DNA of 64,000 nucleotides from the NCBI GenBank assembly GCA_021018995.1, contig CM037598.1, forward strand, positions 48,375,185 to 48,439,184, read 5' to 3'. The notes beneath the pieces were generated by a model. That model saw nothing but the letters and a program-made list of their open reading frames with translations, was not told the DNA's origin and did not search any database. Shown here piece by piece: positions 21,251 through 50,989 of this stretch. A program made the translations under genes and the position numbers. The DNA is from Chloranthus sessilifolius. Its lineage: Eukaryota; Streptophyta; Magnoliopsida; Chloranthales; Chloranthaceae. How positions within the stretch are numbered: the stretch's first letter is position 1; every line of letters starts with the position of its first letter.

Positions 21251-21318
21251 TTAACCTACTTCAGGTGGAAGAGGAACTGCAAGCCAGGAGTGGAGGAAGA
21301 AAAGGAAAAAGAGCCGGA

Positions 21319-21549: not shown

Positions 21550-21614
21550 AGCTTATGAGGAGGAGTGCAGAGGGTAGAAGGAGGTGAATGGGAAGAAGTC
21601 GAGCCATCTGCATC

Positions 21615-22054: not shown

Positions 22055-22575
22055 CTATCGAGAGGTCACCTGAAGACTTCGATAGGAGCTAAAAGCAAAG
22101 AAAAGAGGAATTTGTGCAGTTGAAAAGGTTTCGATAGGATCTGAAGGCAGAAGAAAGATGGATTTGTGTGGATTAAGGGGTTCGATAGGATCAAAGAACC
22201 TATCGAATAGCTTAAAGAAAGGAAGAAACCATCCTATCGAAAACCTGCCTAAGGTGTAAAAGGAACCTATCGAATGGTTTCCTGAGCCTATTGAGATGGA
22301 GACGCTGGAACATATCCTATCGAAGGGTGATTGAGCCTTTCGATAGGAGGGAGAGCAACCCTATCAAAATGATGACATGCAGAATGGAACCTATCGAAAT
22401 GGTTTTCCAACCTGTCGAAAAGCTTCTCCAACCTGTCGAATGCTCCAGGCCAAGGGATGAGAACGCTGAAGCTCTTAGAGAAGGCTCATCCTATTAGAAC
22501 CTATCGAAGAGATCTGAGAACCTAGAGAAAGGACCAAAAAGCTCCATTCCAACCTGTCAAAAGCCTCCTGAAGCT
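22055..22575. promoter_or_regulatory. CCTATCGAAA motif array in solo LTR U3
   Basis: About sixteen copies, for example AACCTATCGAAATGG, CATCCTATCGAAAACC and GTTTCGATAGGATC, plus CCTGTCGAA variants, on both strands. It ends about 220 bp upstream of the LTR TATA box. Confidence 0.9.
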
Positions 22576-23287
22576 GTCGAAATCGTGTGCAGAACTTCTC
22601 AAAAATTCAGCTATGCACATGCTATGACTTGATGACCTGCTGCACGTAACTCGAGGCACTTGGTGACTGGCACGACGATTCTAGAAGATGCCCTAGGAAA
22701 TCCTAACTGACCCACGTGCTCTAACAGAACTCTAACAAACTCTGAGGACCTTCTAGAAGGGATTTTTGGCAGGAAAACAGAGGAGAAAGCCATATATACA
22801 GACCCCCTATTGCAATTAGGAGGAGATCGAGATCTGAACAAAATTCTAGAGATTAGAGCTTGCATAGAAATTCTATTTTCCCTCTTTTAGCCCAACAATG
22901 GTTGGCTAATCCCCTTGGAGTAGCGAGGAGAGAGGTTAGATATGCAATTTGGTAAAGTTAAGAGTGTTATTGTGGGTTCCCAGCTGCACAAACTATAGAT
23001 CTGAGAGTATTGCCATTGTAGAGTGATTTTGATTGCAATGTATATGCTATTATTAACGCTTTAATTAGATCTAAAGTTCTTTTAGTTTCATTTGGTGATC
23101 GATCGGATTTGTGTAGAGGAGTCTGTAGATCAGCTCACCCACTTAACTAGTAGGCCTCTTGGATGCCATTCGATCTCCCTGGATCTGATACTCCTGTAAT
23201 TCCCTAAGTCTGTGACCTTGGAATTGCAACATTTGTAGTGGTTTTCATTGTTCTAATTGATGCTTTAGCTTTGGAGGAGATCTCTAG

Positions 23288-23452
23288 GATGGTCTGTGAC
23301 CATTAAAGTGGACAGATTATAACCTTAAGGTTAGTCCAAGCTCAGGCTCCAATTGGATTCATCTGTTGCAAATCCATGGATCCGATAAAGTCTATAGGAT
23401 GGTCTATGACCATTCAAGTGGACAGATCATAGCCTTAAGACCAGGTGGATCC
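23288..23452 (+). repeat. Two copies of the shared 50-bp LTR unit
   Basis: Copies at 23288-23340 and 23398-23452 centre on GACCATTaAAGTGGACAGAT and are followed by a CTTAAG word. The unit is repeated one to three times in LTRs C, D, G and H and lies in the probable transcribed part of the LTR. CTGTgaCCA/TGGaCAG can pair around TTTAAG. Confidence 0.75.
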
Positions 23453-23931
23453 TATGTTTGGAGTGGAGCCTTCTGCCCTGCAGCTGTGCTTAGAGCCAGT
23501 TGAGGGAATTGTGTACTCTGAACCTCTGTGGCATGATTAATCGAACCTAATTTCAGTGAGACCAATCTCCAAGCTACTCTTCTCCATTTTCTGCTTTTTA
23601 CTCTTTTTCCCTGCAAGATCTAAGTTTCCAAACTCAATCCAAGATAGCCTTTGTTTAATTTCAGCTTAGCTTAAGTGACAATCCATTTTAAACATCTCCC
23701 CTGTCTTTTAGTTAACTTAGCATTAGTTAGGGTGCCAGATCTCCCACAGATCTGGAGATTTATAATATTTTTAAACTAACCTCCCTATGGACATTCCCTT
23801 ACTCACCATCTTTTTAAAACTTGCTACAACGGACCCTGATTACTTGTAGGTCTGTGTGAGTGTGCTCTGCCTAGTTTGATTAGTAATTTTAGATCCTCTT
23901 TTGAGGGAAGGCAAGCACTCCCAACAGAAAC

Positions 23932-24697
23932 CCAGGAGGGTTAAGAGTGTAAATCCCATGCTTCGTGCAGTTGTACATATGGTACATGTGGGGTAAAATT
24001 CCTGTGCAGCATAGGTGCACAACAAGCATGGAAAGAGTGAATATGCTTTCGATAGGATGAGTTTTTAAAATATCGATAGGTTAAGGCTTCCTATCGAAAT
24101 GTGACAAGTATGTAGCTAGCAGTGGAATGGTCCGATAGGTTCAACTCTTCCTATCGAAATGAATGAATATTGATTTTGATAAGCTGGGATGAATGCTTTC
24201 GATAGGTCAGTGTCCTGTCGAAAGCATGGCAGATAAAGCATTCAATTCGCAAGAATGTCGATGGATGAAAACAGTCTTTCGATAGGTTAGATAGTACATT
24301 CGTCATCCTGTCGATAGGTTCTAGATAGGAGTCCGAAACCTATCGCAAAGTTGGTCTCACCTATTGATAAGTCTTAGCACCTCTCGAAATCCTCACCAAT
24401 CCTATCAACGTCAACAACTGACCTAGCGAAAGGTTCAAATGACCTATCGAGAGGTCCTATAAGCACAAGAACATAGCCTGTGTGCGCAAAACTTTAGCCT
24501 TAGCGCCCAACAACTCTTTTGCTGTGCTACCATTCAGTTCATTTTTCTTTTGACCTTGTTCCGATGGTCCCTAGACAGCAGGCAATATTGAAGTGAAGCC
24601 TAATCCTTAAATGGCCATTTTATTGCAGAAAAATAAATTAGAAAGAATCAAAATAGAAACCAAATATAGTACATAGGATACAAATCGAAGAAAGAGA
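23932..24697 (-). other. Element B interval between pol and the downstream ORF, with motif array
   Basis: Noncoding. 24045-24460 contains about fifteen copies of CCTATCGAAA/TTTCGATAGG and variants, the internal counterpart of the U3 array. The part 23932-24045 contains ACATATGGTACATGTG-like palindromic words. The solo LTR interrupts the interval on the left. Confidence 0.8.
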
Positions 24698-25830
24698 TTA
24701 ACCTAGAGGATCCTGAAGATCAATGATCTCCTCAGGCTCACAAATGTTGTTGACACAAAGTTTTAGCCTCTGACCATTGACCTTCATGACTCTGCCATTT
24801 GTAGGGTCCATGACTTCAACAGCTCTAGATGGAGAAACGTGTACCACTATGAAAAGCCCATCCCATCTCGACTGTAACTTTCTTGGATAGAACTTCATTC
24901 TGGAGTTGAACATCCATACCTTGTCATTTGGCTTAAATTCTTTCCATAGCAAGTGTCTGTCATGGAAGGCTTTGGTCTTCTCCTTATAAATCTGGGCATT
25001 TGCATAGGCTTCTAGTCGCAATTCATCCAGCTCGGATAACTGGAGTTTCCTGTGTATACTAGTGGAGTTTAAGTTAGAATTTATTACTCCAATGGCCCAG
25101 TATGCTTTGTGTTGCAATTCAATAGGAAAGTGACATGCCTTGCCATAAACTAGTCTGAATGGGGACATGCCTATGGGGGTTTTATAGGATGTCCTATAAG
25201 CCTAGAAGGCATCCGTTAATTTTGTGGACCAATCCCTCCTGTCAGTTCTTACAGTCTTCTCGAGAATATGTTTGATTTCCCTATTGAAAATCTCTACTTG
25301 CCCACTGGTTTGTGGGTGGTAGGGGGTGGCTACTCTGTGGGTCACAGAGTATCTTTCCATCAGTTTATCAAAAGGTTTATTACAGAAGTGCCTTCCCCCA
25401 TCACTAATAATAGCTTTAGGGATGCCAAATCTTGAGAAGATGTTGTCTTTCAGGAATTGGATTACAACCTTGTGGTCATTTGTCCTCGTAGCTATGGCCT
25501 CTACCCATTTGGACACGTAGTCCACAGCTACAAGGATGAAATTGCATCCATAAGAAGGGCGAAAAGGTCTCATAAAATCGATTCCCCAAATATCAAACAG
25601 TTCGACAACAAGTATAGGTTGCAAGGGCATAGAGTTTCTCTTTGCAATGCTGCCCATTTGCTGGCATCGAGGACAAGCTTTACAGTGTTGTTGGGCATCT
25701 TTGAATAGAGTAGGCCAATAGAAACCACTTTGAAGCACCTTCGCCGCAGTCTTGTTACCACTGAAGTGGCCCCCACAAGCCATGGTTAGGATGTTTTAAA
25801 CTTCGTTTACTACACAACGTCTGATCACCT
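24698..25830 (-). pseudogene. IN: Element B (Athila) integrase
   Basis: The zinc region reads [20 protein letters not shown] followed by CKACPRCQ. The catalytic residues are visible in WGIDFM (D), ISDGGRHF (D) and [12 protein letters not shown] (E). A TAG near 25201 replaces the Trp of the conserved LWAYRT block, and reading resumes in the same family order ([15 protein letters not shown]) to a stop before 24698. The C-terminus has WLFNS/KVW-type and RWDGLFIVVHVSPSRAVEV blocks typical of Athila. Stops upstream of 25783 damage the N-terminus. Confidence 0.85.
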
Positions 25831-27170
25831 AATATGTGCAATGCTTAAAGAGGTGAGGATCCTCTCACATGTAATATCAAATCTGTGAGAAGAACAGATT
25901 TTTATCATCCTTGTTCCAATGTGGAGGGATCCTACCCACAGCAAGGTAATTTACAATATTTGCAAACCAGGGCATACTTATCTGTACAGTAAAAAGCTGC
26001 TCATCTGGGAAAGAGTCATTGATGGGCAAACTCTCTGTTTCAGCCGCTGAGATCCTTGACAGATGGTCAGCAACCACGTTCTCAACTCCCTTCTTGTCTT
26101 TAATCTCCAAATTGAATTCCTGCAAGAGAAGAATCCATCTGATTAGTTTTGCTTTGGCTTCCTTTTTGGACAAGAGGTATTTCAAAGCTGAGTGGTCAGT
26201 GAACACAATAATTTTTTATCTTAGTACATAAGACCTGAATTTTTCTAAAGCAAAGACAATGGCTAATAGCTCTTTCTCAGTCATAGTATAATTCAATTGA
26301 GCATCAACCATTGATTTACTAGCATATGCTACCACAAAAGGTGACTTGTCTCTTCTTTGACCCAAAACTGCCCCAATGGCCAAATCTGATGTATCACACA
26401 TCAGCTCAAATGGCAGGGAGAAATCAGGGGCTTGTAAGATAGGCGCTATAGTCAAACAAGTCTTTAACAGTTCAAAAGCAGCTCGGCATTCATCATTGAA
26501 CTCAAAAGGAACATCCTGGCACAACAGGTGACAAAGGGGTCTGGAAATTTTGCTGAAGTCCTTGATGAACCGCCTATAAAACCCAGCATGGCCCAAGAAT
26601 GACTTGACTTGTTTGACAATTTTGGCAGGGGGCAAATGAACAATTAAGTTGATCTTAGCCTGATCAACCTCTATTCCTCTGTGAGAGACATGTCCTAAGA
26701 CAGTGCCTTGAATCACCATGAAGTGACTCTTTTCCCAACTCAGAACTAGGTTGGTCTCCTCACACCTTTGCAGCATAGAGCTGAGATGGTGCAGGCATTA
26801 GCTAAAATCATCCCCATAAATGGAGAAATCATCCATAAAGATCTTTAAAAACTTGTAAATCATGTCAGAGAAGATATCATGCATGCATCTTTGGAAAGTG
26901 GCAGGTGCATTACACAACCCAAATGACATCCTTCTGTATGCAAAGGTTCCAAATAGGCAAGTGAATGTAGTTTTTTCTTGGTCCTGGGGGTAGACAGGGA
27001 TCTGAGTGTACCCTGAATATCCATCAAGAAAATAGTAATAGGCCTTTCCTGCCAACTTGTCCTAGATCTGATCTATGAAGGGCAATGGAAAGTGATCCTT
27101 GCTAGTTTTTTCATTGAGCTTTTAAAAATCTATGCATACCCTCCAACCAGTGGTCTGTCGGGTTGGAATC
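25831..27170 (-). pseudogene. RT-RNH: Element B reverse transcriptase and RNase H
   Basis: RT is seen in 27055-26798 (GKAYYYFLDGYSGYTQIPV and the active-site box FMDDFSIYG) and 26776-26216 (thumb FLGHAGFYRRFIKDFSK, then RNase H start FELMCDTSDLAIGAVLGQ). RNase H continues at 26206-25877 with [11 protein letters not shown] and [10 protein letters not shown]. The pieces are separated by single stops near 27122, 27061, 26797 and 26213, mostly without length change, so decay is recent in appearance. Confidence 0.88.
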
Positions 27171-31768: not shown

Positions 31769-32459
31769 ATGCCATATAACAAACCTTTTGAAAAGCTATT
31801 GGAAAAATATTTTGTGACCCACAGAATTGCTACTCCCTACCACCCACAAACCAGTAGGCAAGTAGAGATTTCCAACAGGAAAATCAAACACATCCTAGAG
31901 AAGACTGTGCGAGCTGATAGGAGAGATTGGTCCATAAAACTGTCAGATGCCTTGTGGGCTTATAGGACTGCCCCCCATAGGGATGTCCCCATTCAGGCTA
32001 GTATATGGCAAGGCATGTCACTTGCCTGTTGAGTTAGAACATAGAGCATATTGGGCCATTAAAGCATTAAATTCTGACTTAACTTCTGCTGGTGTGAATA
32101 GGAAACTGTAATTATCTGAGCTTGATGAGTTAAGGTTGGAAGCATATTCAAATGCCCGGACTTACAAGGAAAAAACCAAGGCTTTTCATGACAGACATTT
32201 GCTGCGGAAAGAATTCAAAATAGGTGACAAGGTATGGTTGTTTAATTCAAGATTAAAATTCTTTCCAGGAAAATTACAGTTCAGATGGGATGGGCCTTAT
32301 ATAGTTTTACATGTTTCCCCATTCGGGGCTGTAGAAATCATGGACCCCAAAGATGGTAGAGTCATGAAAGTCAATGGGTAGAGGCTAAAGATTTGTGTTA
32401 AAAAAATTTGTGAGCTTGAGGAGACCATTGATTTTCAGGACCCTCCAATTTATACATGA
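31769..32459 (+). pseudogene. IN: Element C integrase, C-terminal part
   Basis: Begins inside the catalytic core after the second Asp ([20 protein letters not shown]) and includes the catalytic Glu in [15 protein letters not shown], the ALWAYRTAP block, and the C-terminal module FNSRLKFFPGKLQFRWDGPY. A frameshift lies near 32000-32030 and an in-frame stop near 32108; the last codons end near 32459. Confidence 0.82.
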
Positions 32460-32707
32460 TTTGAGTATGTATCATATGTACTATATTTTGATTTTGTTTT
32501 AAGTGATTACTTTCTATTTTGATGTTTTGTTCATTTTCAATAAATTTGTCATGCTAGCATTAGGTCATCATATCAATCTTGCCAAGCAGTCCAGGGACCA
32601 TGGGAGTATGTTAATAATGAAAATAACGTGAATGGAAGCATAGCAAAGGAGTTTGCTGGGTGCTGAGGCTGAACAAAACACATAAATGTAGTTTCTATGA
32701 GCATATG

Positions 32708-33003
32708 GGACCTTTCGATAGGTCATTTGACCTTTCAATACGTCATTTGGGGATTTCGATAGGCACTGAGACTTGTCGATAGGTGAAAACAACTCTTCAT
32801 AGGTTCAAAAGATCGAAAAGAAGTTTTCGATAAGTTCTGGATACTTATCAGGAACCTATCGAAAGGATGAATCATGTACCACATGAACCTATCGATAGGA
32901 AGGATTTGACCTATCGAAGCATCTCATCTGCATGCTGTATTCTTTATAGTGTTCGATAGGATGCCTTGACCTATCGAAATCACTCAGCTCATCCTATCGA
33001 AAT
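32708..33003. promoter_or_regulatory. CCTATCGAAA motif array upstream of ORF3 (element C)
   Basis: About twelve copies within 300 bp, for example CCTTTCGATAGGTC, GAACCTATCGAAAGG, CCTATCGATAGG and CATCCTATCGAAATTG, on both strands. It ends 13 bp before a TATA box. Same word as in LTR C U3. Confidence 0.88.
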
Positions 33004-33015
33004 TGATTTTCACTC

Positions 33016-33023
33016 TTTATATA
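33016..33023 (+). promoter_or_regulatory. Candidate internal TATA box for ORF3
   Basis: TTTATATA directly follows the motif array and lies 332 nt before the ORF3 ATG at 33355. The array-TATA-ORF order copies the layout of the LTR promoter. Confidence 0.5.
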
Positions 33024-33354
33024 CCTGTCGTTAGGTCATTTCTACTCCATTCAACACTTTTTGCAAACCCTAGCTCTCTCTTCCTCATTGGTCACTGCTC
33101 TCATTTTCTATCAAATACTCTAAGGACCTTTCGCCACTCATTTTGCCATTCCTCAAGTTCATTCGCCCACACAAAGGAGCATTTTGTGCCTGATTTTTGG
33201 GAAATTAGAGTTGTGCATCACGATTTCTGCAAAACCCTAGGATATTTGGGTATGTTATCTCTCTGCTTCACTATGTTATTTTCCTAGTTGTTTACTTCAG
33301 AATTGTAATTCAAATTAGTGAGTGAGCTTTAAGAGATCAATTTCTGAGAGCATA

Positions 33355-36320
33355 ATGGTCAATTTTGAAGAAACCCTAGCTGACCTATTCTGGCAATCAG
33401 CTTCTTCCACCCCAAAGTCCTGCAAAAAATCAAAGCCTACCACCAACCCACCTTCCAAGAGGAAGCTTCCTGAGGGGAAGCCCAAGAAGGCACCTAAAGT
33501 AAAAAAGGCTAAGTCTGTTACAATTCAGGAGCCTGATGCAGAAATACCCATGGAGAGATCTGCTCCAACTGGGGAAACTCCTTTGCCCAACCCTGACATA
33601 TTTCCTGCGGTGGAGCTTGCAACTGCATTAACCACCCGTAATGAGTTTGTGGATGGGTTAAGCCTTATCCCTGAGACAGATTTTGATCTTGCATACTTTA
33701 CTGAGATAGAGGAGTGCCAGGGGACACTAATATATCCAAAGAAGGAGGGATTGTTACCCCTACTTATACCCTTGAAGGAGACTGGGTACCCCAAGCTAGT
33801 TAAATTATGGTACCAAAATTTAACAAAGAAGGTGGTGCCTAGGAATGAGGCTGTGCTGGAAATTCTGATTGATGATTGGAAAATAACTGTGGATTGTAAG
33901 GACATTGGGATGGCTTCGGGAGTTCCACATCAATTTGACTCTACTAGAACTGAGGGAGTATCCAAATGGGTTATATTCAGAGAAATGGCTAAACAGCTTA
34001 CTAATGGAATTGTGGGATCTGGTGAATCTTTGATGAGAAGAGACCTCCAACCTAACCTCAGATTCATCGACACTATTCTGAGAAAGAATGTGTATGTCAC
34101 TGGGCACCTGCAGGAGAGAAGGCCCCCAGTTGTAGATGCTTTATACTACTGTTCAAAAGGGCAATTTTTGAGTGCACCACAACTAATTTTTGAGATAATG
34201 GTAGACATTAATGATAAGGTGCTTAAAAGACAGACATTTGCTAAAAGTGTTGGGTTGCCTTTCAGCAGGCTCATTACATGTTTGCTAAAGGCTAGGAAAT
34301 ATGTGGTTAAGAGAAATGAGTCAATCGAGAAGTTGACTCTAAAAGTGTATGGAAAAAGGGCATGGTCCACCAGCCTAACCCTGATTAAGAAGAGTAAGCC
34401 AACTGAGTTGGAGGAGGTTGAGGAGGTGCCCACTACCACTGTAGCAGATCTTACTGCTAAGATACCCTCATCCATCCTTTCACCTACCTTACCTACATCA
34501 TCACCAACACCTCCACCCACTTTGCTTTTCCCCTTTGTATCAGTCCCTCTTCCAACAGACCCCCCTCCTCCTACCTCAGAGCCAGTTTTACCTCCACCCA
34601 CCACTCAAATTCTCGAACCTGAAGTCCTTGAACCTCCAACCAACACTACCAGAGCCTACCCTTTCTTCTCCACCCTTTGACCAACCCATTTATGACTTCC
34701 ACCCTCACCAACCCCTACATCATACCCAGGGCTTAGACCAGTTTACCACTGCCGGGTTCACTGCCCTAATGACATCCATTGTGGAAGATGTTGGGCATGA
34801 GTACACCCCACTCCTAGACTCCCCCCACCCCACTCCCCCTCAATTCAACCATGCACCCCCCCCCTTTCAGGCCCATTCAAGCACCTGTCCCCTCCAACCA
34901 CATCATGCCTGATTCTTTCACTCAAATTCTCTCCCTATAATAGTCCATTCAAACTCAATTGACCACCAACACCAACAACCAAGCCATCATGAGCTCCTAC
35001 CTTCAATCCATTCAATCAACCCTTGCTCCATCCGCTTCAGTTCCTCAACCCCCTCACACTCCCCCTCTTTCCCCTATCTAATCACCTATCCTTTTATCCC
35101 CTCCATCTTCACCCATAGTTCCACCCCCACAGCTACTACCTAATCTTAGGAGGGAGCCACTCCATTTTGCCCCATACCTATCCCATCTCTATCTTTTATC
35201 CCTTCCTCACCCCCAATAGTAGCCACTGAAGCTGTTGTGTCACCTAACTCCCAACCTCCCACTCTCCCTACACCTGTCTTCAAAGATGCCTCCACTCGAA
35301 CTGATCCATGTGAGGAACTGGTTTTCTCCAACCCCTCCTCTTCTTCCACTCCACTCCCTTCTTTACCCATTATCCTCAGGTCCCCCATCTGCATACTCCC
35401 TTACCTCACCCTATTGTATGTAATGAGGGACAACCCCAACATCCGCCGGGATGTCCTGAGTGGAATGGTTGCCCTCCGAGCTTCCCTGGAAGTCACCTAT
35501 GAGGAGAGGATTGCTTTCATAGAATTGGAGCAAAGAATCCAACTCCGGGATATCTCTCAGGGGTGGAAGGAAATCCTGACTTGTTATGAGTCCGCCAAAC
35601 TTCTTACTGAGGCTCAGACTCACATTGCCGAGTTTAAGAAGAAGAATGCTGAGCTTCTCAAAAAAAAATTAGCCAATGCTCAGGAGATACTTAAGGCCAC
35701 CCAGGAACTCTCTGAGTCTGACTTGCTTTATGCAACGAAGAAAATCAATATTCTAGAGAGAAAAGTTGCTTCATTGACTTCCAAACAATTTCAACCAACC
35801 CCTCTTGCTACATCTCCTCCTTCCAACCCTCCTGCCACTTAACCTACTCCTACCCCACCTGTAGATGTTCCCCCCTCCAGCCTATGATCTTCCTGCAGCT
35901 AAACCTTCCCCACCACAACCTAAGAGGACTTATACAAAGAGAAAAGTTACTGTAAAGAGATCTGTTTCCTCTGCTTCTACTCGCAGTAAAGGGAAGGAAC
36001 CTGCTACCCAGCTTGAAGAGGTAGCCCCCACCAAGCCCCCACCCCCACATGGCATCTCCTCCACCTTACTCTCCAAGGAGGAAAGAAGGAAAGTTGTTGC
36101 TGCCCTTGGCCTAGATCCTACTGTCCTTTTCCCTTCTGATTCTGATTCTGACTCTGTTACTGCTTCTGCCATGAAAACCAAGAAATTTGCTGTCCAGTCT
36201 GAGGAGGCCCCCAAGCAATCCACCCAGAAGTCCCAACCTAAAGGAAAAGCTCCTTTATACAAGGAGGATTTGAAAATTTTAGCATACTTGTATGATTGGC
36301 CTGATGATGCTTGTAAATAA
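33355..36320 (+). pseudogene. Element C ORF3 (Athila env-position ORF, putative plant transposon protein)
   Basis: ATG at 33355 (MVNFEETLADLFWQ), rather than the non-ATG start eleven codons earlier. A Lys/Pro-rich N-terminus (KPKKAPKVKKAK, possible nuclear signal) precedes a conserved domain of about 270 residues with LLPLLIPLKETGYPKLVKLW, LRRDLQPNLRF-like MRRDLQPNLRFIDTILRKNV and VTGHLQERRPPVVDA. It is followed by a long Pro/Ser/Thr-rich tail. The frame ends at 34680, but related sequence continues in other frames through a coiled segment (35430-35800) and ends with ILAYLYDWPDDACK at 36320. No signal peptide or clear membrane segment is visible, so an envelope role is not supported by this copy. 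Confidence 0.7.
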
Positions 36321-38093
36321 ATATAGACTATTTTTGTTTGTTTTCCCTTAATGATTTAGACTATGTACATATGTTAGCTGTTAATCATAGTTTCTTTTCT
36401 GTACCCTGTCTTTCTTTGTACTTATTGTGCATCTGTTTCTTCATCTACCCTTTTCATGGTTACCATGCTCTCTGAATAGTGAGGACACTGTTTAATTTAG
36501 GTTTGGGGGTATGGCAAGTATGCCAATGAAATGAGTTAATGCTAGTGCAGTAATGTTGAAAAAAGTTTTTGAAAATAAAGTGATTTCCCACCTAATTTTT
36601 GAAAAAAAAAAAAGAAGAAATTAAAAACATTTAAAATTGAAATGAGCTGTAGTTTTAGCATTTTTCATGAAGCAAATGTCAAGAATTTTTAAAAAGTGAT
36701 GTTTAGTTAACCTGAAAGGAGAGAAAACTGTGAGGATACACCCCAGAAATTTGATGGAAGGCCATACCCTGTGAAATTTGGGCCTGGAAATTTGTTTTTC
36801 TTTGAAGAGTGTCTTGGCAATTTTTTTTGCACTATGGATTGATTGGATCTAGTTTCGATCACTAGAAGTTAGGCAAATCTAAGTTAAAATAGCTTGACAG
36901 CATTCATGACATTGAAGACATGAAGTAAGGCCATTCCTTGGACAGGTTGAGCTTAAAATGTCCCACCTTTGAACTGCCCTTGATACGCACCATTTGAGCC
37001 TTAAAATTCCCAATTTTTTTTTATAAAAACCAGAAAATTTGAACCCAAAACCCCTTGACCTATTTCAATTCACCCTCAATCTGAGAAATTAAGAAGGGAA
37101 AGGAGAAGTGAGGTTAGAGGAGCAAGGTTTGACATTTGGTAGCATTTGTGGCATTCCAGCCCATGGAAAGAAAAATGGAGAAAAACACAAAAATAAAGGC
37201 ATATTTAAAAAAAAAAAAAGAAAAAAAGAAGGGAAAAATAGAAAATACAAAAATGAAAGAGAAGTCACTTCATTAGATACATTGAAATGAAGATTAGAAA
37301 TTAATCACTTCAAATCTGAAAATTTAAAGAAGATGAAGATGAGATGAAATGAAGAAGGTGTGCATATCACCTCCTTACCTGTAATGATTTCTCAATTTGA
37401 ATCCATTTTACCCCTTTATTCTTTATTAACATCACCCATAAGCCCAATAAAAAGTCCTTACTGATCTGAAATTTGATTGAGCTGTCATGTGGAGATGAGG
37501 ATTTGTGTAATCTATGATGAAAAGAATAAGAAAATGTCAGAAGTTAGAGAAATGCCTATGCTCATGCTTGCAGTCCTATTTGAGGGGCTGTAACTATTCT
37601 TAAGCTGTGTGAGAAATGATGCACCCTTCTACTTTTGTTGTGAGTCAATAACCCTAGTAAGATTTGGGTCTAAAATTAAAGTTGTTTGGGGTATTATCAA
37701 AACAGAATTCTTAAATTAAAGGTGAGATCTGCATCAATTTTCAGGCACAATGCCTTGACATGAACTGATTGATGATGAAGGAATTATAGCAGAATTTCAG
37801 GTTTTAAACTTATGATTTTTCTGCTGAAAATCCTCAAAAATTGAAGGGACATGGTGTGGAATTTATTTCATTTCACTTAAACTCTGTTTTAACATGTTGC
37901 ATAAGTATTAACTGATTTTATTGGAGAAGTTTGGGGGTACCTTCATTGAAAACCCTCAGGAGACTCCACTCCTCCACTAGGGATCACCTAGGGGTTCAAA
38001 AGGCTTGATGCATATGCTAAATGCATCTGTGCTCCCTACAAAAGTGGCATTTTAGTTTTCTTTATTCTTCCTTTGCTCAGGGACTAGCAAAGC
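36321..38093 (+). other. Element C 3' noncoding region
   Basis: Contains a post-ORF3 hairpin (36477-36490), a PPT-like tract AGGTTTGGGGGTATGG (36499-36514), A-rich runs, a second G-tract near 37930, and a conserved block before the PPT with stem-loop GATGCAT/ATGCATC (38007-38027). No credible ORF. Collinear with B, D, F and H. Confidence 0.75.
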
Positions 38094-38095
38094 TT

Positions 38096-38108
38096 AGGTT
38101 TGGGGGTG
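38096..38108 (+). promoter_or_regulatory. Polypurine tract of element C
   Basis: AGGTTTGGGGGTG abuts the LTR start TGTTAATC at 38109. Confidence 0.85.
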
Positions 38109-40080
38109 TGTTAATCTTTGAAAAGTACCACTTTTCACCCCTTAACAGGAGCTTTGATAGACCTATGAGTGGACTAATAAATGCTTGTTGAGTATGTCTT
38201 GTAGATAGCAGTAAAAGGTAGTCATAGTGTAGAAATCCATCTCTCAGTGCAGTTCAGACCCAACAATGGCCCACTTAGAGCATGTAGCAACAATAAAGCA
38301 GCTTTGAAGGAGTAAAAATAGGCTGAAAACAACCTGTCGAGAGGTTACTAGAACCTGTCGATAGGATCTGAAGGCTGAAAAAAAGGATGAAGTCGTGAGG
38401 ATTGGAGTATTCGATAGGATCCAGAACCTATCGCACAGTTGGAAATGAAAAGGGAGCATCCTATTGAATGGTTACCTGAGCTTGAACATTACCTATCGAA
38501 GAGTCTGAAAAGCTATCGATAGGAGCCAAAAGAGAACCTATCAAGAAGTCTGGAACCTGTCTATAGGAGCTAGAAGCAAACCTATCAAAATTTATTACGC
38601 AGAGAACAACCTATCGAAAGGATTCCCCAACCTGTCGAACACACCAAATGAAGGTTGTGGATGCTAGAGCTCTATTCCCAAGAGCAACCTATCAGAACCT
38701 ATCGAAAGGATCCTGAATCCTAGCGAAAGGAATAAAAGTCATGTTTGCAACCTATCGAAAGCCTCAAGAACCTATCGAAATTGACTGAAGGACTTCTCAG
38801 AAAAGCTATTGTGCACACGCTACAAGTTGGTGACCTGCTGTATGCAATCCGAGGCACTCTGGTGACCGACACGAAGTTTCTAGAAGTGCCCTGGGAAACC
38901 CTAACCGACCCACTTGCTCTCCCCCAACTCTAACTAACTGAGAGAGCCTTCTAGAAGGGGAATAAAAGAGGGAATAATAGAATTATTCCAGCTGAGCTGT
39001 GATTGGCGGGAAAAATAGATCTGAGGCTGAAGGAAAGAGCTATATAAGGAGTGAAGCTATCAGAAAAAAGGGGGATCAATTCTAGAGATCAGAGCCTGCA
39101 CCAAAATTCTCTCATATTCTCTCTTTTAGCCCAACTATGGTTGGCTAATTTCTTTGGACCAGTAAGGAGTGAGGTTGGATCTATAATTAGAGAGAGTTGA
39201 GAGTGTTATTGAGGGTCAGATGATGCACAGACTACAAATATGAGAGCATTTCATTGTATAGCGAGTTTATTTCAATGCAATGTTGGTTTAATTGTTGTAA
39301 TTAGATCCATAGTTCATCTGGTTTCATTTGGTGCTCGATCAGATTTGTGTAGATGGGAATAGCACACCCACTTAACTGGTAGACCTCTTGGATACCATTT
39401 GATCTCCCTAGATATGATGTTCTTGCAATTGCCTGTGTCTGTGGCCTGGCAGTTGTAGCATTTGTAGTGATTATACTGTTATGATAGAAGCTTGAGAATG
39501 GAGTGAATCTATTGGATGATCTGTGACCATTGAAGTGGACAGATCATAGCCGTAAGATCAATCCAAATCTCTGACTTAGATCAGACCCTTTTACCCTGTA
39601 GCTGTGCTTATAGCTAGATGAGGGATTGACGCACTCTGAATTCTTTGTGACACTGTCAGCTCAATCCAATTACAGCAAGACCAAATTCCAAGCTGTTTCT
39701 CTCCATTTTCTGTTTTTAATTTCACCTGAAATTCCCCTCACTTGTAAGATCTGAACTCTGGATTTAATCTCAATTCATTTTTGTATTTAATTGTGTTTCT
39801 GTAGTTTAGTTTAAAGTGATAACCCCTTAAAAACTCTCCTCTCTTTTGCTATTTTAGTATTAGGTAGGGTGCCAGATCTGCCTTAGATATAGAGATATAC
39901 TTAATTTTCAGGTCACATTTCCCTGTGGACATACCCTTACTTACCCTTTTTAAAACATGCTACAACAGGCCCTGAATACTTGCAGGTCTGTGTGTCTGCT
40001 TGCCTTGGTGTGTGCAACCAATAGATCCTTTTATTGTGTGATTTTAAACCCCTGTTTGAACACAAGGTAAGAAGCCAACA
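38109..40080 (+). mobile_element. 3' LTR of element C
   Basis: 1972 bp from TGTTAATC to GAAGCCAACA. It has the terminal hairpin at 38120-38136, the CCTATCGAAA array at 38335-38790, a TATA box TATATAA at 39041-39047, one copy of the 50-bp unit (39514-39568) and the conserved LTR-end block near 39955. It is followed directly by the integrase tail of element D. Confidence 0.9.
38335..38790. promoter_or_regulatory. CCTATCGAAA motif array in LTR C U3
   Basis: About sixteen copies including AACCTATCGAAAGG, AACCTGTCGATAGGATC, AGCTATCGATAGGAGCC and AACCTATCGAAATTG. It ends about 250 bp before the TATA box. Confidence 0.9.
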
Positions 40081-40318
40081 GAGGCTGGGGCCACGGTATG
40101 GCTGTTCAACTCCAAACTGAAATTCTTCCTAGGAATGTTAAGATCCAGATGGGATGGCCCTTTTGTTGTAATTCATGCATCCCCATCTGGGGCTGTGGAG
40201 ATAATGGAACCCACTTCTTGGAAGATTATGAAGGTGAATGGTCAGAGACTCAAGTTATGTGTGGAAAATTCCATGGAGTCCTCTGCAACCATGTATCTTT
40301 AAGACCCTCCCACTCATG
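40081..40318 (+). pseudogene. IN: Element D integrase, extreme C-terminus
   Basis: Reads TVWLFNSKLKFFLGMLRSRW, then GAVEIMEP and KVNGQRLKLCVEN, matching the integrase tails of B and C. Everything upstream is replaced by the LTR of C. A frameshift lies near 40200, where another frame takes over. Confidence 0.75.
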
Positions 40319-40724
40319 AGTGATCCACTGCCATATACACTTTGTAAAATAACTATTTTGTGTGTTCAAATTCTGTCATTTGTTGTTTTTAGTTTGTTCT
40401 TGTACGCTTTAATGTTTTGTGTTAATGCTTAAGTGTTTAGATTATCTAGATCTGAATTTATGAGTCTTCATCTACCATGGATTGGGCCATCTGCATGTGC
40501 GATTTAAGTGTGTAGAGTAGATTGTGCAACCAGGGGTTTAAATTGATTGTCTGCTATGATTCGTGTTGTGAACATATGTGTGCATGAATTATGCAATGGG
40601 CAAGAGTCTCACAGCTGTGAAATAGTTGAAATGTGACAGAAATATGGTGTTGGTACACCATGGCAGGGTGCATGATAGTTTAAATGAAGATGCCAATTGG
40701 CTGGCATTGAGAAGTAGTGGATTT

Positions 40725-40935
40725 GGCCCTATCGCGAAGCTCATTTTCAATTGCGCGAGTAGTGAATTCCATACTTATTCTAGCTCGTGAGGCTCCTTCT
40801 GAATTGTGCAAGCTGTGATTTACCTTGGATAGAATTGCACAATAGTACATCCAGTGCTTATTCCAGCTCGTGAGGCTCAACTTCTAATCTCATCCTCGCG
40901 ATAACCTAGCGAGAGCCTCGCGAAGCACAGGTATC
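40725..40935. promoter_or_regulatory. CTCGCGAG-type motif array upstream of ORF3 (element D)
   Basis: Words such as TATCGCGAAGCTC, TTGCGCGAGTAG, GCTCGTGAGGCTC (twice), CTCGCGATAAC, CTAGCGAGAGCC and CTCGCGAAGC occur on both strands. They occupy the same place as the CCTATCGAAA array of element C. The rest of 40319-41322 is noncoding. Confidence 0.75.
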
Positions 40936-41322
40936 ATTGATTTAAACCCCGCGATTGCTTCTTCTTCATTTCATCTCTTTGCCCTAGCTTCTAGTGCACA
41001 CCATAGAGCTATCATTTCCATTCCTTCACCTTCACTGCCCATTTTGCCCCTGCTCTTACACCCTACTCTTGTCACTTTGCACCATGTCAGCTCCCAAGCA
41101 TTTTGCACCTAACAAAGAGCAGATCGGTTCATAGTGCAAGTTCTAAGCTAAAACCCTAGCTTTCAGAGGGTACATGCTCTATTTTCTCAGCTGTGAGTTT
41201 AATTTGTATTTCCTCTGGTCTATTATTTGATTTTGTGGGAGGAATTTATGTGGTGAAACCTCAGTGGAGCTATAGCTACCTAGGGTTTGTGTTTCTAGAC
41301 CTAGAACTTGGTATTTTGTGAA

Positions 41323-44202
41323 ATGGCTGACAAAACCCCATTAGTGGAAGACCTTGATGACCTATTGAACCTCCCTCCAACAGACATCCCCACAACAACA
41401 AGAAAATCAATGAAGATTGCTGAGGCATCCACTGTGAAGGGCACTGATGCCCCTGCACCCCCATCTGTTGACCCTAAGAAGAGGGCTGCCCCAAAGAAGA
41501 GGGCAAGAGCTGCTACTCTGAGCCCTAAAAAATTAAAAAAATAGAAGAAGGGCAAGGAGGTTGTCCCTGAAGTTAATCCCCTGACAACTCCTAGTGAGTT
41601 TATGGCTGTGATTAAATTGGAGCCTGAGAATACCTTTGATATGGCATTTTTTGAGAAGGAGCCCTTGACTGCCCCATCTATAGAATTTCTAACCAAGGCC
41701 TCCTTGGTATCTCTACTCAGGCCCCCATTGGAGTTAGCCTTTCCTAGTTTAGTCCAGCTATTCTATCAGAACATCAGGGTCAGGAAAGATAAGGATGAAA
41801 ACCTTGTGTTGTTGATCCTAGTGGATGATTTTGAAATGTTAGTGGATCCATCTGTGATAGCCCAAGTCCTAGGGATACTAGCTGCCTACAACCTTGAGTG
41901 TACCTTGGGAGCACCTCTAACTGCCTCCATTACTGTGATTGCTGAAAAGATAATACAAGGGAAGAAGGCTTTAGGAGACCCCATCAGGAGGAGAGACTTA
42001 GAGCCCAGGCTGCTTTTCATGGACCATGTTTTGAGAAAGAATATCTATGTGACTAGGCACCAACAGGAGAGAAGGGCACCGCTAGCTGATGCCATCAATA
42101 GCTTCTCTCAGGGGCATTGTTTGATGCTGCCTAGCTAATTTTTGATGGAATGATGAACATCCACTTCAAGGTGCAAAAGAAGCAAAAGCCTCATGCACTG
42201 TCATACAGTAGGCTCCTCACATCACTGCTAAAAAGAGGGGGTTACCAATTGCAGATGGGAGAGGAGACAAAGACACTGCCACCTATTCAGTTTGGAAAGA
42301 AGCTTTGGGAGATTAGTTTGACAATGGTGAAGAAAAAGAAAGATCTGAAGGCTGAGGTAGCCCCCACCATCCAAGAAGCACAAGCTGCAACTACCATAGC
42401 TACACCAGATGCTCCTGCTGTTGCCAGCTCAGCCATCCCACACACCACCACTCAACCTTCCATCATCACCACCAGCCTAATGCCAGTTCCTCCTCCACCC
42501 ATCATTCCATCCCCTATATCTTCCATAATCCCCATCCCCACCATTTCTTCATCAACCCCTTCTAAAACAACCACCCCTATCCCTGTGCCCGACCCTAGTC
42601 AACCCACATTTCCTTTCACTTTACCCACTCCCAGCATTTCAAGAACATACAAAAAGAAACCCTTTCAACCATCCAAAGCAACCACCACATCCCAACCCAC
42701 TACCATCCTTGAGCCTACTCCTAGTTCTATATCCATCACCTTACCTCCAATCACCTACACACCATACCTCACACCACAACCTATTCCAAGCCCAGACCCC
42801 ATTCAATCACCCCAGCCTATATCAGGCCCTCTTCCAACCTCAATAACAACCTCTATTCCAGACCTACCTACACCTTTTCCTTATGATGTCAGTGAGCCTT
42901 TAGCCACTGACATTGACCAACTCAATACCTCTACATCCATTGAACTTGACACCTTAGACCCCTTTGACCATTCCATTCACTTTTTCCCTTCCTATGACCT
43001 AGACCTATACACCACTAAGGGATACTCAGCTATGATGGACACCATCATTGGGGACATCAGGTATGAGTTCACCCTTCTCCCTGACTCCCCATAGCCCACC
43101 CACTTTCACCATGCCCCAACCTCCCCTTTTCAGCCCATCCCAATCACTCAACCTACAATCCTAGCCATCCCGGATCCATTACCTCAAATATTTACCCTCC
43201 TAACCTCACTTCAAACCTAACTAGTAGCCAACACCCAAAATCAGGCCACACTCCAAACTAGCCTACAATCCATCCATTCAACCCTAAAATCCTTTACCCG
43301 CTCATTCCAGCTACCTTCATCTTCACCCAGACCTGATCCTCTCCCCCTACCTCACCTCAGCCACTAGCTTCTGTATTGACAGTAGCTGCTGCCACACAGA
43401 CCCAAATTGAGCCTTTAGAGTTGCCCCTTATTCAACCTCCCTGGCCTCTACCTCCACACAAACCCATTTTGCGGTAGAGGAACTACCCCTCCTTCTCCCT
43501 ACCTTAACCTCTGCCTTTACACAAATTGTAGAAGAGGAACCATCCACCCTACCCACATTTACATACACCTTTACCCAGACAGACCCTGAGCCTCTACCTA
43601 TGGAGATGGCTCCTATCCCACCAACCTTCATCTCTACCCACACCCAGACTGAGCCCAGTGAGGAGGAACTGACACCCACCCTTCCACCTCCATCATCCTT
43701 CCCTTCATCATCAGCCACTCCTTCCCATAGATTTGAGGACCCTATTGAAAGGGCCATTATTCCAACTTCCTCAAATCCAATGCCCCCATTTTCTACCCTC
43801 AAAAGAGCAATGGTTGAAAACCCTTACATCCAGAGGGATGTCATTAGAGGGATGGCTGAGCTCAACACAAGGGTCAAGCAGCCATTGGTAGCTGAAATTG
43901 CCTAGCTGCAGCTGGACCATAGAGTTGAAAAGAGGCAGCTAGAGCAAACTGTGATGCCAGCCCTGAAATTATACCAAGTGTATATGGAGAAGGCAAAATA
44001 GTTGGCAAAGCTTGCAGACACCCTCCAAACAACAATCTCAGTCACGAAGCCAACCTCAGTAGCAGAAGTGACAATCAAGGAGCCTTGTCAATAACAGGGC
44101 AGCACCAAGCCCAAGAAGTCAGCTGCCAAAAGAACCAAGGCTGGTGCTGCCAGTGCTAACACTATGAAGAAAGAGAAGAATAAATATTCAAAAAAAATAT
44201 AA
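41323..44202 (+). pseudogene. Element D ORF3 (Athila env-position ORF, putative plant transposon protein)
   Basis: ATG at 41323 (MADKTPLVEDLDDLLNLPP), a Lys/Arg/Ala-rich stretch (KKRAAPKKRARAA, possible nuclear signal), then a stop at 41542. The conserved domain follows (41602-42138) with FPSLVQLFYQNIRVRKDK and RRRDLEPRLLFMDHVLRKN, a stop at 42136, then SRLLTSLLKRGGYQL and a very long Pro/Ser/Thr/Ile tail. A C-terminal block NPYIQRDVIRGMAELNTRVK is shared with element H. It ends KKI and TAA at 44202. Function unknown; compared with C the domain order is the same and the sequence clearly divergent. Confidence 0.7.
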
Positions 44203-46175: not shown

Positions 46176-48657
46176 TGTTAAGTACTGAAAAATACCATTT
46201 TTCACCTCTTCACCTAGCATTTACTACTCCTTGGAGCCATTTAATAATCCTCTTTTGAGTTTATTTTGTAGTTAAGAATAAAATTTGCAGCTTAGTACAA
46301 TAGCCATGTTTTGGAGGCTAAGAAGAGAGATTTAAAGCCAAGGGCTGTAGCTGATGGAAGAACAAAGGACACACTAGGGTGGTACACACCATGGTGACTA
46401 TTTTGGCTGCTGAGGTGGGCCGTAGAAGTTAGATGGATGAAAGAAAGATGGGCCAAGCAGAGAACACTACCGCAGCAGCATGTGCACTACAACAGAGAAG
46501 AGAAATGTCGAGCTTGCGCAGCCCTCACGTAGTTCAATTTGGCCTGAAAAGCCCCCTCGTGCAGCTCTCACTTAGCTCAAGCCCATAGTAGTAAAAGAGC
46601 TCGCGCAGATCTCGTGCAATGCACTGCAACAGTAAAAGAACTCGTGCACAACTCGCGTAGCTCAAGAGGAGAGAGATTCCTAGAAGATATTCTCGTGAAG
46701 CTCTCACGCAGACCCCACACTCTTCAAAGACAGAGCCAGCCACGCGAGATGTGCAACCATCCTAGCAATCAACCCTGCGCAGCTCAAAGCTCATCCTCGT
46801 GACAGCCTGGCGAGACGTAATGCAGCCTAGCGAGGTCCTCGTGACTTTAGCCACCTGGAGAACCATTTGTGTGAGCTATGCTACTCAATACAAAAGGGAC
46901 CTCGCGAGGCTCGTTCAACTGTAAGGTCAACCACGTGATAGGTTCGTGAGAGGCCAAACTGCAACACTCATCTACGTGAAGCTTGGGATCCCTACTTCTC
47001 AATCTTCTCAGTCCATACATAGGGACACTTCGGGGATTTTTCAACTTCTAGGGCACACATCCCGAGGTTCTAACCTATTTCCTACTTCTCGAGGCATCCA
47101 AGGGCCACAATTGGGCCATGCCTTCAAGGAGCAATTAGGTTTTTCTCTCATGTGCTCCTATTGGCCAAGGCAGTGAGAGAGTTGGTATCTAAGCTGTAAT
47201 GTTTTAGCAAAAACTTATCTGATCTTTAACCAAAATTGGCTATGAGCTAGAGAGTTCTTAGGCCATTAGGGTTGGGGTTAGATCATCCATTTTTCTTTTC
47301 TTCTTCCTTAGCTCAGCATTTGCTGGCTAAGATTTTTGTAAGTAGATAGTTTATTTTAGTTTACAATGCATTTTGTATGAACTTGGGGGTTGATTTGAGC
47401 TTCTGCACTGGCTGTTGCCTTGAGGGCAGACATTGTAAGTTACCTTTTCATCAATGCAATGCCATTCTTATAGCTTAATTGAATCTATATATTTTCTATA
47501 TTTCACACATGAATTTCTATGGATTTGATGCACCCATGGCTGCTTGAGCTTATAGCCTTGCAAACATGGTGACATCAGCAATTATCCTGTTCTATTTCAT
47601 CATCTATGAGGAAGATAACCTCTTGGATAACCTGTGACCATTTAAGTGGACAGACTATAGCCCTAAGGCTGGTCTAAATTACAGATCTAAGATAAATTCT
47701 TCTTCTTTGTACTTGAGCTTGTAGCCAAGTGAGAGATAGTTGCAGATCCAAACTCTCCTTTGTGTTGCAATGCCATTTTTAGATTTTAGATATGATGTTC
47801 TATAGAGATTTAGACTTGTGAGCTAGGTCATTGCAGGCCTTTTATAGCAATGACCAGCTAAGTCTATGTCCCCATTCAACCTCTGATTATCCGTGGTTTC
47901 CACTAGATTTTCAAGGGTTGTTTGCTCCTATGAATGCATGAGCTTGTAGCCTTGCAAACATCGTGTCTACAATGGTATTCATGTTCTGATTTAATTTATT
48001 GGTTGGAGGAAATCTCTAAGATAGTCTATGACCATTTAAGTGGACAGATTATAGTCTTAAGATCAATCCATTCCTTTGGATTAGATTAGCTTTCTAAGTT
48101 TAATCCATGTGAGTTGATCATCTCTCTAGGATAGTCTGTTACCATTTAAGTGGACAGATTATAGCCTTAAGAGAGTAGTCTAATTCGCAGGGGTTGATTT
48201 GGATTCCTCTACCTTGCAGATGTGCATGTACCCATCCGAAGGATCACTGCAGAGTCACCTCTAGATCTGAGTTGCACAACTGACTTAATCTTAGCTACAT
48301 ACTTTTCATCATTTTACCTTTATTCTACCACACCATCATCACCTTCTTTAAAACCCTTTCTATAGTATAAGACTGCATTTTATTTCTTAGTGTTAGTTTT
48401 AGTTGTGACAACCCCAAAAACTTCCTTTCTTTAGGATTGCCAGATCTGTAGTTAGACCTTGAGGCCTACTAACATAACCCTCTTTGGGTTCTAGATCGAA
48501 ACCTCCCTGTGGGACAAGCCCTTACTTCTTAAAACTTGCTACAATAAGCCCTGGATTCTTGCAGGATTGTGTTTGCTTTGTGTTTTGCTCCATCTCATTC
48601 ACCTTTATTTCCTCTCAAATTTTTAACCACCCATTTTATAATAAAGTTTTGTCAACA
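46176..48657 (+). mobile_element. 3' LTR of element D
   Basis: 2482 bp from TGTTAAGTACTG to TTTGTCAACA. It holds the terminal hairpin (46187-46203), a CTCGCGCAG-type array (46505-46975), three copies of the 50-bp unit (47622-47680, 48012-48070, 48121-48180) and the conserved end block CTTGCTACAATAAGCCCTGG near 48535. Followed by a fragment of element E. Confidence 0.88.
46505..46975. promoter_or_regulatory. CTCGCGCAG-type motif array in LTR D U3
   Basis: More than a dozen words such as GCTTGCGCAGC, CTCGTGCAGCTC, AGCTCGCGCAGATC, CTCGCGTAGCTC, CTCGTGAAGCTCTCACG, CTAGCGAGGTCCTCGTG and CTCGCGAGGCTCG. Related to the array at 40725-40935 in the same element. Confidence 0.85.
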
Positions 48658-48816: not shown

Positions 48817-50989
48817 TGTGATAGCCCGAATTTCCGTGACCGGAAACCCGCGCCGTCGGTATGACCCTTAAAGCTGCACCTAATATATCTCACAGAACAC
48901 TTGGCACATCCACACACAAAGCAGAAGCAAAGAAGAAAGTCTTACTAAACAGATCGAGTAATCATAAAGAAAATAAATCTCCATTTCTATTAAATGATGA
49001 AACTAAACAAGGTAATCCAAAAGACGGTTCTAATCCCATGCCAATCGCTTGAGTAAAAGAACCGAGCCGAACCATTAGTGACAACCAACAAGTCACCCAA
49101 GGATGGTTCGCCAAAAATTATAGTATCCCATAATTACATTATTTTTAAGTTATATTGGCCGGATGTACCACACCTTACAAAACACTCTCAAAGTACACAA
49201 CCATATCTGCTAAAAGAAATCCTCGGGAGGAGGCTCAGTCTCCCCCAAAGGCATGTACTCAGAATCATCCTTTTCCTAGTCCTCAGTGCCAATATCATCA
49301 CCTATATCTGTGACGTATAGTAGAGGGATAAGCTACATCTAAGCTCAATAGGGAAAAAGAAATAGCATGTATATATTTCACATCACGCACATATTTCATG
49401 ACATAACTCAAAGCATATTTGACTTGATGAAAATCACAAAGTTATAAGCATTTAAATGGACAAAAAGAATAACTGATGCATATTTAAGAATCACATTGAT
49501 CAAAATTTCAAATGCTTGTTCTTATTTCACAAAACTTAAAACAATCACTTAAATAGTCCCTCGAAAATCTATAGCATTAAGCCCCCGATGGAATACTCAC
49601 CATCGTCATTCACATGAACCATTTGCACAAAATGCCCAAGCTCCTTCGACTAGGAGACATGTGCCGAGTAAAGTGTTTCCACAGATTGAAATCCAAAGAA
49701 CGGATATCCCGCCGTACCAGAGCACAATTTGTATGGATATCCCACTGTACCAGTCTCAGATATCCCGCCGTGTCGGTCGGGTATTCACACATAATCCTTA
49801 AATCAAAGTGCTAAGTCTACATATAGTTATTCACCGTGAGTTCATGAAAATTATAATAATTCAAGGTTTTCAAAAACTTCACACATATTTTTATTTACAT
49901 ACGTTTGATGTCTCACACATAATTACATCCTCCTGATGTCACATACACGTTTCACATGGCACATACACACACACCCATATCTTTTCTATTTAGTGCACAT
50001 ACGTATAAATGAATCTGTCTCGATCTAGCTAGCCTCTCACACACGTGACCATGTTCATACCTAAACACATACAAATCATAGCCCCACACATCAGAAATGA
50101 CGTAAAACATGAAGACATAAAGCTTCCCCAAATTCCTCAAGACAAATTGAAACAAAATTCTGAATCTGACCAAACCGATCAATCGATTCCAAACTTATCA
50201 GTCAGTTTCCCCGAATCACTCGATCGGTTTACTCACTGAGAAACCAAACCTTTGCTCAGGTGCCACATTCCGATCGATCGGTTTCTCCAAATCGATCGAA
50301 CGAAATTAATTTTGATCAATCAATTTCTTCAGAAACCCAACTCTTTCTTCTCTTTGAGAAAACCGATCGAACGGTCACTTATTTCGATCAATCGATTTTG
50401 TCAAATTCAGCACACTCACGGGCTTTAACTTCTCAAACTTGTTTTCTTAATTACTTATCTCCTAAACTTCTAATTCTCTCTCACATACATATACAAGAAT
50501 TAACATAACTGAAAAATCCAACTTCATATAAATTTCTTACCTTAATTTGATCGATTATTCGATTCACGTACTCAAACACAACTAGGGCTTCATAATTGGA
50601 GCTTCAGATTCTTCACGATCCTAAATCCACAGTCTCTCACAAAAATCCTAGTTCTTCGCACACATGATCACACGCATTCAAAGCTTATCTCCTTTCTCTA
50701 TCTCTCTTAATAACTCTACAACAACCAAAGCAAGAGAATTTATTTCTCTTACGTTTGTCCTTTATACTTAAAATCTCTTTCACAAGTGTTGAATACATAC
50801 ACCGTACTTTGGTTTACGCTACCTCATTAATGGTTCATACACACATTCATCTTTTCTTTCTCATTCGCATCTAAATTAATTTAACCCACATTTAAAATTT
50901 TTATCATTTCATCTTATCGGGTGTGTGACCAATCGAGCACGCACATCGAGGCTTACTGTTCACAGGTCTAAAAGTTTTGGGACTTTACA
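48817..50989 (-). mobile_element. 5' LTR of element E (unclassified, tRNA-Met primed)
   Basis: 2173 bp. On the element strand it starts TGTAAAGTCCCAAAACTTTT at 50989 and ends CGGGCTATCACA at 48817. It is unrelated to the Athila LTRs. No pol remains, so gypsy or copia assignment is not possible. It contains its own palindromic motif array (50158-50400). Confidence 0.82.
50158..50400. promoter_or_regulatory. CGATCGATCGG motif array in LTR E
   Basis: Nine or so copies of AACCGATCGATCGGTTT-like words, intact at TTCCGATCGATCGGTTTC (about 50269) and diverged at CCGATCAATCGATT, CTCGATCGGTT, AATCGATCGAACG, TTTGATCAATCAATTT, ACCGATCGAACGG and TTCGATCAATCGATTT. Flanked by ordinary AT-rich sequence. 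Confidence 0.8.

Follow-up and report, generated by a model that had tools for sequence, protein, structure and literature searches.

Helically phased palindrome arrays before the LTR promoter and before ORF3 in Athila-like retrotransposons of Chloranthus sessilifolius: candidate operators of a family-specific factor

In a stretch of 64,000 nucleotides from Chloranthus sessilifolius (assembly GCA_021018995.1, contig CM037598.1, positions 48,375,185 to 48,439,184; from here on the window, in whose own coordinates all features are given) several long terminal repeat (LTR) retrotransposons are nested in each other. One of them, element C, carries the same short motif in many copies at two places, once upstream of open reading frame (ORF) 3, the frame that in Athila-type elements has long been called env-like, and once in the U3 (unique 3′) part of its LTR. 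Why should one element keep the same array twice? A sequence-only reading of the window had taken the clusters for binding sites of one factor acting on two promoters and had named ORF3 as a candidate for this factor. As far as DNA sequence can tell, our analysis supports this interpretation in part. We propose that both promoters carry arrays of operators at which a dimeric factor specific to the family would bind, most likely the ORF3 protein, and consider this proposal somewhat more probable than all others together.

The 10-mer CCTATCGAAA occurs 21 times in the window (0.14 expected) and, with up to one mismatch, 63 times (3.6 expected); neither count was reached in any of 100 shuffles. 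Every one of the exact copies, and all but five of the larger set of 63, fall in five clusters (18621-19149, 22054-22509, 24047-24452, 32713-33002 and 38356-38780), two of them in element C and three in element B and a solo LTR, where they had been reported. The site is a CpG-centred near-palindrome (AACCTATC-GAAAGGTT), here called C-type, with copies on both strands, as had also been stated. Upstream of ORF3 in C a search allowing up to one mismatch gave 11 hits (one site counting once per strand) and a looser core rule likewise gave 11, close to the reported twelve; the sixteen copies reported for U3 were recovered with the looser rule, and 10 with up to one mismatch. Five control stretches of the window (C pol end, C ORF3, C noncoding DNA after ORF3, D ORF3 and D noncoding DNA) contained no C-type site and none of the D-type described below (one match to the E-type was found in the D noncoding DNA). 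The genome as a whole (2.17 Gb) contains the 10-mer 39,737 times and its reversed control 5,670 times; close pairs number 31,149 and 654, respectively. Both counts stem in part from an unrelated dispersed repeat. This repeat (CCTATCGAGGTCGCTGAGCGCAG...TTCATTATCGA), present at many places on contig C1, inflates the C-type pair count and has nothing to do with the arrays.

In element C (plus strand) the order is pol end (31777-32460), internal array (32708-33003), TATATA (33018-33023; the putative promoter of ORF3), ORF3, long noncoding DNA, polypurine tract (about 38099-38106) and 3′ LTR (38109-40080). ORF3 is broken in this copy: an open piece of 441 amino acids (33355-34680) is followed by the open frames 35237-35842 and 35865-36320, which encode a hydrophobic, a heptad-like and a basic stretch. 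The 3′ LTR (TGTTAATC...CCAACA; ends set by eye; similar to the solo LTR) contains the U3 array at 38335-38790, with TATATA at 39041, so that a TATA box does follow both arrays, as claimed. In element B (minus strand) an internal array of 15 sites by the looser rule (24045-24460) adjoins the end of the integrase, and a truncated 3′ LTR (18345-19423) contains the array at 18621-19149. Inside B lies the solo LTR (21780-23926, plus strand), which is flanked by a 5-bp target duplication, GAAAC, recognized by eye, and has its array at 22054-22580 and TATATA at 22793. RT_RNaseH (26216-26776) precedes the integrase (25202-25783) in B, which is the gypsy domain order, and the pol ends of C and D are homologous to that of B, which indicates a gypsy affiliation of these three elements; we take the hosts of the arrays to be Athila-like Ty3/gypsy LTR retrotransposons. 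In the place taken by ORF3 in C and D, B shows a short lysine-rich frame starting at about 21551 (20900-21551, minus strand).

The spacing of the sites had been called irregular. This was not borne out. With the CpG dyad as site centre and the mean cosine of the centre distances as measure of phase, we scanned periods from 7 to 14 bp, and in the five C-type arrays both adjacent distances (n = 69) and the distances of all pairs no more than 110 bp apart (n = 200) gave their top values at 10.5 bp, namely 0.61 (null 0.057, standard deviation (sd) 0.094) and 0.488 (null 0.016, sd 0.044), respectively. Each array was also phased when taken alone (p ≤ 0.0033 of 300 draws). Same-strand pairs (0.518; n = 119, null sd 0.060) and opposite-strand pairs (0.445; n = 81, null sd 0.071) were both in phase, and leaving out the 18.6-kb array, which is the one most like that of the solo LTR, gave 0.424 and 0.493, respectively. 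Whichever strand they are on, the centres are thus separated by multiples of 10.5 bp, which places the sites on one face of the helix. Opposite-strand pairs deviated by roughly 1 bp, one way or the other, so that the centre of symmetry is no more than about half a base away from the dyad. Common descent links the arrays of B, C and the solo LTR, so that they do not count as five independent cases; the arrays of D and E are the more independent ones.

Element D and the LTRs of E, F and G carry other motifs in U3, which the sequence-only reading had missed. The LTR end of C directly abuts the pol end of D (40080-40081), C being apparently nested in D. On the plus strand, D continues from this pol end (from 40081) with an internal array (40690-40960) of five sites of a different palindrome, CCTCGCGAGG, here called D-type, with TTTAAA near its end (40941), a broken ORF3 (41324-43094) and a 3′ LTR (46176-48590, end approximate) with four D-type sites in U3 (about 46490-46990); no TATA was found after this U3 array, though D has both arrays. 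Neither D array contains a C-type site, and the C and B arrays contain no D-type site. D-type sites also occur in U3 of F (53330-53930, minus strand; five sites) and of G (60200-60860, minus strand; seven sites). The LTR of E (57282-58560, plus strand, end approximate) has a third motif, CTCGAGCAG, with seven sites and one D-type site at about 57780-58520; one or two E-type matches are also found in the B LTR and in U3 of D, F and G. The two-array plan can be read in C, B and D, E being seen from its LTR alone. Genome-wide there are 10,728 pairs of CCTCGCGA versus 197 of the controls (some palindromic pairs being counted on both strands) and 3,590 of CTCGAGCA versus 46. In yet another element, at 50176-50420, the words CGATCGGTTT/AATCGATCG recur on both strands, possibly as a fourth motif array.

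Pooled or sampled genome-wide, these other arrays are phased, too. The internal and U3 arrays of D and those of F and G gave 0.236 when pooled (null 0.013, sd 0.045), and the arrays of 41 D-like loci, sampled genome-wide as described below, gave 0.581. With one array per similarity cluster the values were 0.591 (20 clusters), 0.535 (10 clusters) and 0.506 (6 clusters), each with its peak at 10.5 bp. For E-type pairs listed genome-wide the mean cosine was 0.632 (100 of 100 used, several from the same array) and for C-type pairs so listed 0.655 (67 of 100 used).

The two arrays of an element share little besides the sites. When motifs were masked, the internal and U3 arrays had only one chance word in common in C (E = 0.85) and one in B (E = 0.47); those of D, which were compared unmasked only, shared short pieces, at best 32 bp at 81%. 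Between C and D neither the internal arrays nor the ORF3 leaders align and the LTRs align in short pieces only, the noncoding DNA after ORF3 being 70% identical over 943 columns. At the amino-acid level the pol ends are more alike (57% identity over 77 positions) than the two ORF3 (36% over 174).

Does the motif go with ORF3? Among 96 matches to the ORF3 of C we collected the 30 best, including that of C itself, and among 150 matches to the ORF3 of D we collected 50, namely the best 30, including that of D itself, and 20 hand-picked from lower ranks; in the top D-like matches and in the hand-picked ones the matched stretch is without stops. Upstream of the C-like ORF3, C-type sites were found in 30 of 30 loci (4-10 sites by strict count) and D-type sites in one. 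Upstream of the D-like ORF3, at least four D-type sites were found in 41 of 50 loci (at least two by strict count in 40), and one or two C-type sites in six. In three hand-picked C-like copies outside the window U3 contained C-type arrays, and in the one D-like copy inspected U3 contained D-type sites, the first spacings of which were 11, 31, 63 and 42 and the later ones unphased. The motif class follows the ORF3 clade.

In nine D-like loci the array is missing; BLAST found LTR sequence directly upstream of ORF3 in five of them and pol sequence in one. The idea that the array-less copies are spliced retrocopies was dropped because of this LTR sequence. The joints read in three of the loci (L056, L067 and L068) end in ...CAACA like LTR ends, which fits nested insertion. 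In five of the 50 D-like loci (L047, L056, L064, L067 and L068) LTR sequence, apparently of nested insertions, separates ORF3 from the region of the internal array, and B has its solo LTR there; perhaps the surroundings of the internal promoter are a preferred target.

The ORF3 of C has a basic stretch resembling a nuclear localization signal (residues 34-52), a proline-rich tail and a basic C-terminal piece. Pfam scans returned a weak match to PF20167 (Transposase_32; E = 3e-4 and 5e-4, 21 and 20 bits versus a curated cut-off of 45) and a few isolated weak ones; PF20167 was matched by 12 of the 38 members of group A3 at E ≤ 0.1. The search for relatives gave two by single search and 902 with an alignment (120 among the matches listed), and a sequence profile of ORF3 found no solved structure at E up to 1. 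A strand-turn-strand-helix stretch of ORF3 may resemble plant mobile domain proteins. In the AlphaFold2 model of the homologue P0001 a long C-terminal helix (447-492) is among the better-scored parts.

From these results we propose the following. Each of the families C and D would possess two operator arrays, one in U3 at the promoter of the genomic RNA and one before ORF3 at a putative subgenomic promoter, each array consisting of some 4 to 17 copies of the family-specific CpG-centred palindrome at whole helical turns. Such spacing would let a dimeric DNA-binding factor occupy neighbouring sites along the same face of the helix and exert a cooperative effect on the adjacent promoter or its silencing. 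A palindrome that is present on both strands, is spaced by whole turns, stands at two unrelated promoters and differs between families is most simply explained by a dimeric family-specific factor. The economical candidate for it is ORF3, because the gene adjoins one of the arrays, encodes a nuclear-type signal and predicts the motif by its clade; that both arrays of D carry the other motif makes it a fair candidate, as the sequence-only reading had thought. The ORF3 protein, produced from the internal promoter, would then act back on this promoter and on that of the LTR, either by activating them or by counteracting their silencing.

Several observations weigh against this proposal. Three D-like loci have neither an array nor LTR or pol sequence in its place; two of them (L074 and L089) match D only partly and one (L085) not at all. 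The upstream DNA of L089 (1-600) is CpG-rich, and another motif is possible there. ORF3 and the arrays are inherited in one element, and co-inheritance alone could produce the agreement of clade and motif. Element B keeps C-type arrays without a recognizable ORF3; it may depend on the factor of another element. Averaged over 19 residues, hydropathy reaches 1.78 in a piece of the C ORF3 (35237-35839) and 1.74 in one of the D ORF3 (41602-42135), the usual mean for a membrane segment being 1.6; therefore a membrane segment, and with it an env-like role of ORF3, is possible. The AlphaFold2 models of the C ORF3 and of P0001 have mean predicted local distance difference test scores of 44.5 and 42.1, respectively, and are too poor for use. 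As to phase, neither G U3 nor E U3 is significant in the window when taken alone, and for the exact-match D pairs of contig C1 (94 of 100 used) the maximum is at 11.5 bp (0.495), with 0.22 at 10.5 bp, many of them looking like copies of a few families.

Sequence conservation belongs to the same side of the balance. Within the C-like copies motif columns are 0.949 conserved versus 0.935 for spacers, a slight difference that was also reached in 31 of 270 circular shifts. In six comparisons between families that were guided by the motifs, motif columns reached 0.60-0.85 versus 0.45-0.69 for spacers; with the motifs hidden from the aligner the values were 0.59/0.58, 0.61/0.58, 0.74/0.65, 0.67/0.65, 0.68/0.66 and 0.83/0.78, the excess thus being small or gone. 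The expectation that the motifs are better conserved than the spacers therefore held when the motifs guided the alignment and failed when they were hidden, and we do not claim it. The arrays persist; site-by-site constraint does not follow.

Could a host transcription factor bind the arrays, with different families having acquired sites for different ones in evolution and with ORF3 doing something else, for example as an env-like membrane protein? Host factors act on plant LTRs generally (Tnt1, Tto1, ONSEN). The hydrophobic stretches of ORF3 and the retention of the motif in B fit this explanation, as do the motifs of Sireviruses, which in the parts of the paper compared gave mainly matches to stress factors (PMC2829016). 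It has to accommodate three motif classes in one genome, and it leaves the finding that the class is identical in both arrays of C and of D and tracks the ORF3 clade without an explanation beyond shared descent. We regard a host factor as less likely than ORF3, but as the most likely of the alternatives.

The other explanations do without a specific DNA-binding protein. Phased CpG and AT steps could position nucleosomes or shape methylation, which would agree with the 10.5-bp phase and with the concentration of CpGs in the motifs (65 of the 83 CpGs in the five C-type arrays, the motifs making up 39% of the bases). What recurs, however, is a palindrome of 12-16 bp rather than a dinucleotide, and D and E have other words in the same places; the chance that DNA structure alone suffices is slight. 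Slighter still is the chance that the motifs act in RNA as packaging or dimerization hairpins: the palindromes could pair and both arrays would fall within the 3′ portion of the predicted genomic RNA, but the sites occur in both orientations, stand before TATA boxes in C and have the period of B-form DNA, 10.5 bp. We give the least credence to the phase being a by-product of duplicating units of about 21 bp in tandem. Within the arrays there are short tandem repeats with periods of 20-21, 44 and 52 bp, in about two copies each, and spacers are more alike than shuffled ones in two of the five arrays; in the other three they are not, and in neither C nor B does the internal array have a spacer in common with the U3 array. 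Phase is about as strong for opposite-strand as for same-strand pairs, which direct tandem duplication cannot produce, and it was rejected for this reason, the arrays being no simple tandem repeats, as the sequence-only reading had held. Elsewhere in the window a 61-bp unit is repeated 10.6 times in tandem (3792-4444), and units with GGCGTATATATTATATACGCC-like palindromes are repeated at 1620-1742, with a 47-bp period, and at 17370-17480.

The closest structural precedent of the arrays is not VANDAL but the Sireviruses, which belong to Ty1/copia. According to a survey of 2010, they contain palindromic repeated motifs that are element-specific, are present in at least eight and up to 32 copies, are found for the most part upstream of the TATA box in the upper half of the LTR and also before the env-like gene, and form CpG islands; in its table the copies before env are present in the nine elements with env and absent from the four without it (PMC2829016). 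Like them, C has palindromic arrays in U3 before TATA and before the gene in env position. Unlike them, the arrays here are hosted by elements other than Ty1/copia, B showing the gypsy domain order, and the C and D site matrices lack the CGG-CCG core that most Sirevirus motifs have (Tnd-1: ACAATCGATTGT). The repeated motifs as such were called Sirevirus-specific (PMC2829016). Helical phase, a link between motif and env clade and a self-encoded binder do not appear in the parts of that paper compared (PMC2829016). The two-place plan, known from Ty1/copia, is thus found here in Ty3/gypsy.

For a family-specific self-encoded factor the parallel is the VANC proteins of the VANDAL elements of Arabidopsis, to which the sequence-only reading had pointed. 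According to the parts of the work considered, short family-specific motifs, often in tandem repeats (e.g., YAGTATTAY), accumulate in the noncoding DNA of these Mu-like DNA transposons and differ between related families, and the extra gene of the element encodes the binder, for which binding and loss of methylation were shown (PMC5735166). The elements described here likewise have a short family-specific motif in noncoding DNA, and the difference between C-type and D-type arrays supports the same logic; they have LTRs, a polypurine tract and an integrase, which sets them apart from Mu-like DNA transposons. For Athila itself, an extra ORF of sunflower elements has a partial match to PF20167 and a predicted nuclear signal (PMC11728184), and it has been suggested, with reference to VANC, that factors encoded by LTR elements may shape their own methylation, a matter called unexplored for Athila (PMC12844716). 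The parts of these two works that were compared contain no motif arrays (PMC11728184; PMC12844716), and a partly narrow literature search, with most subscription papers and preprints outside its range, found no report of such arrays in Athila elements, of their phase or of a connection with ORF3.

What the extra 3′ gene of Athila elements does has been asked for a long time. Tentatively, and with slightly less than even confidence, we generalize that the ORF3 of Athila-type elements is a nuclear dimeric DNA-binding regulator that recognizes helically phased palindromes of 12-16 bp in its own promoter and in that of the LTR; ORF3 and arrays would change together and thereby divide the elements within one genome into separate self-controlled regulons, and the Sirevirus plan would have arisen independently. 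If motif and ORF3 co-diverge, the function of ORF3 becomes concretely and cheaply testable, with the arrays of its own and of the sister family. If the generalization is true, LTR retrotransposons, and not only Mu-like DNA transposons, run a family-specific self-control, with palindromes phased at 10.5 bp.

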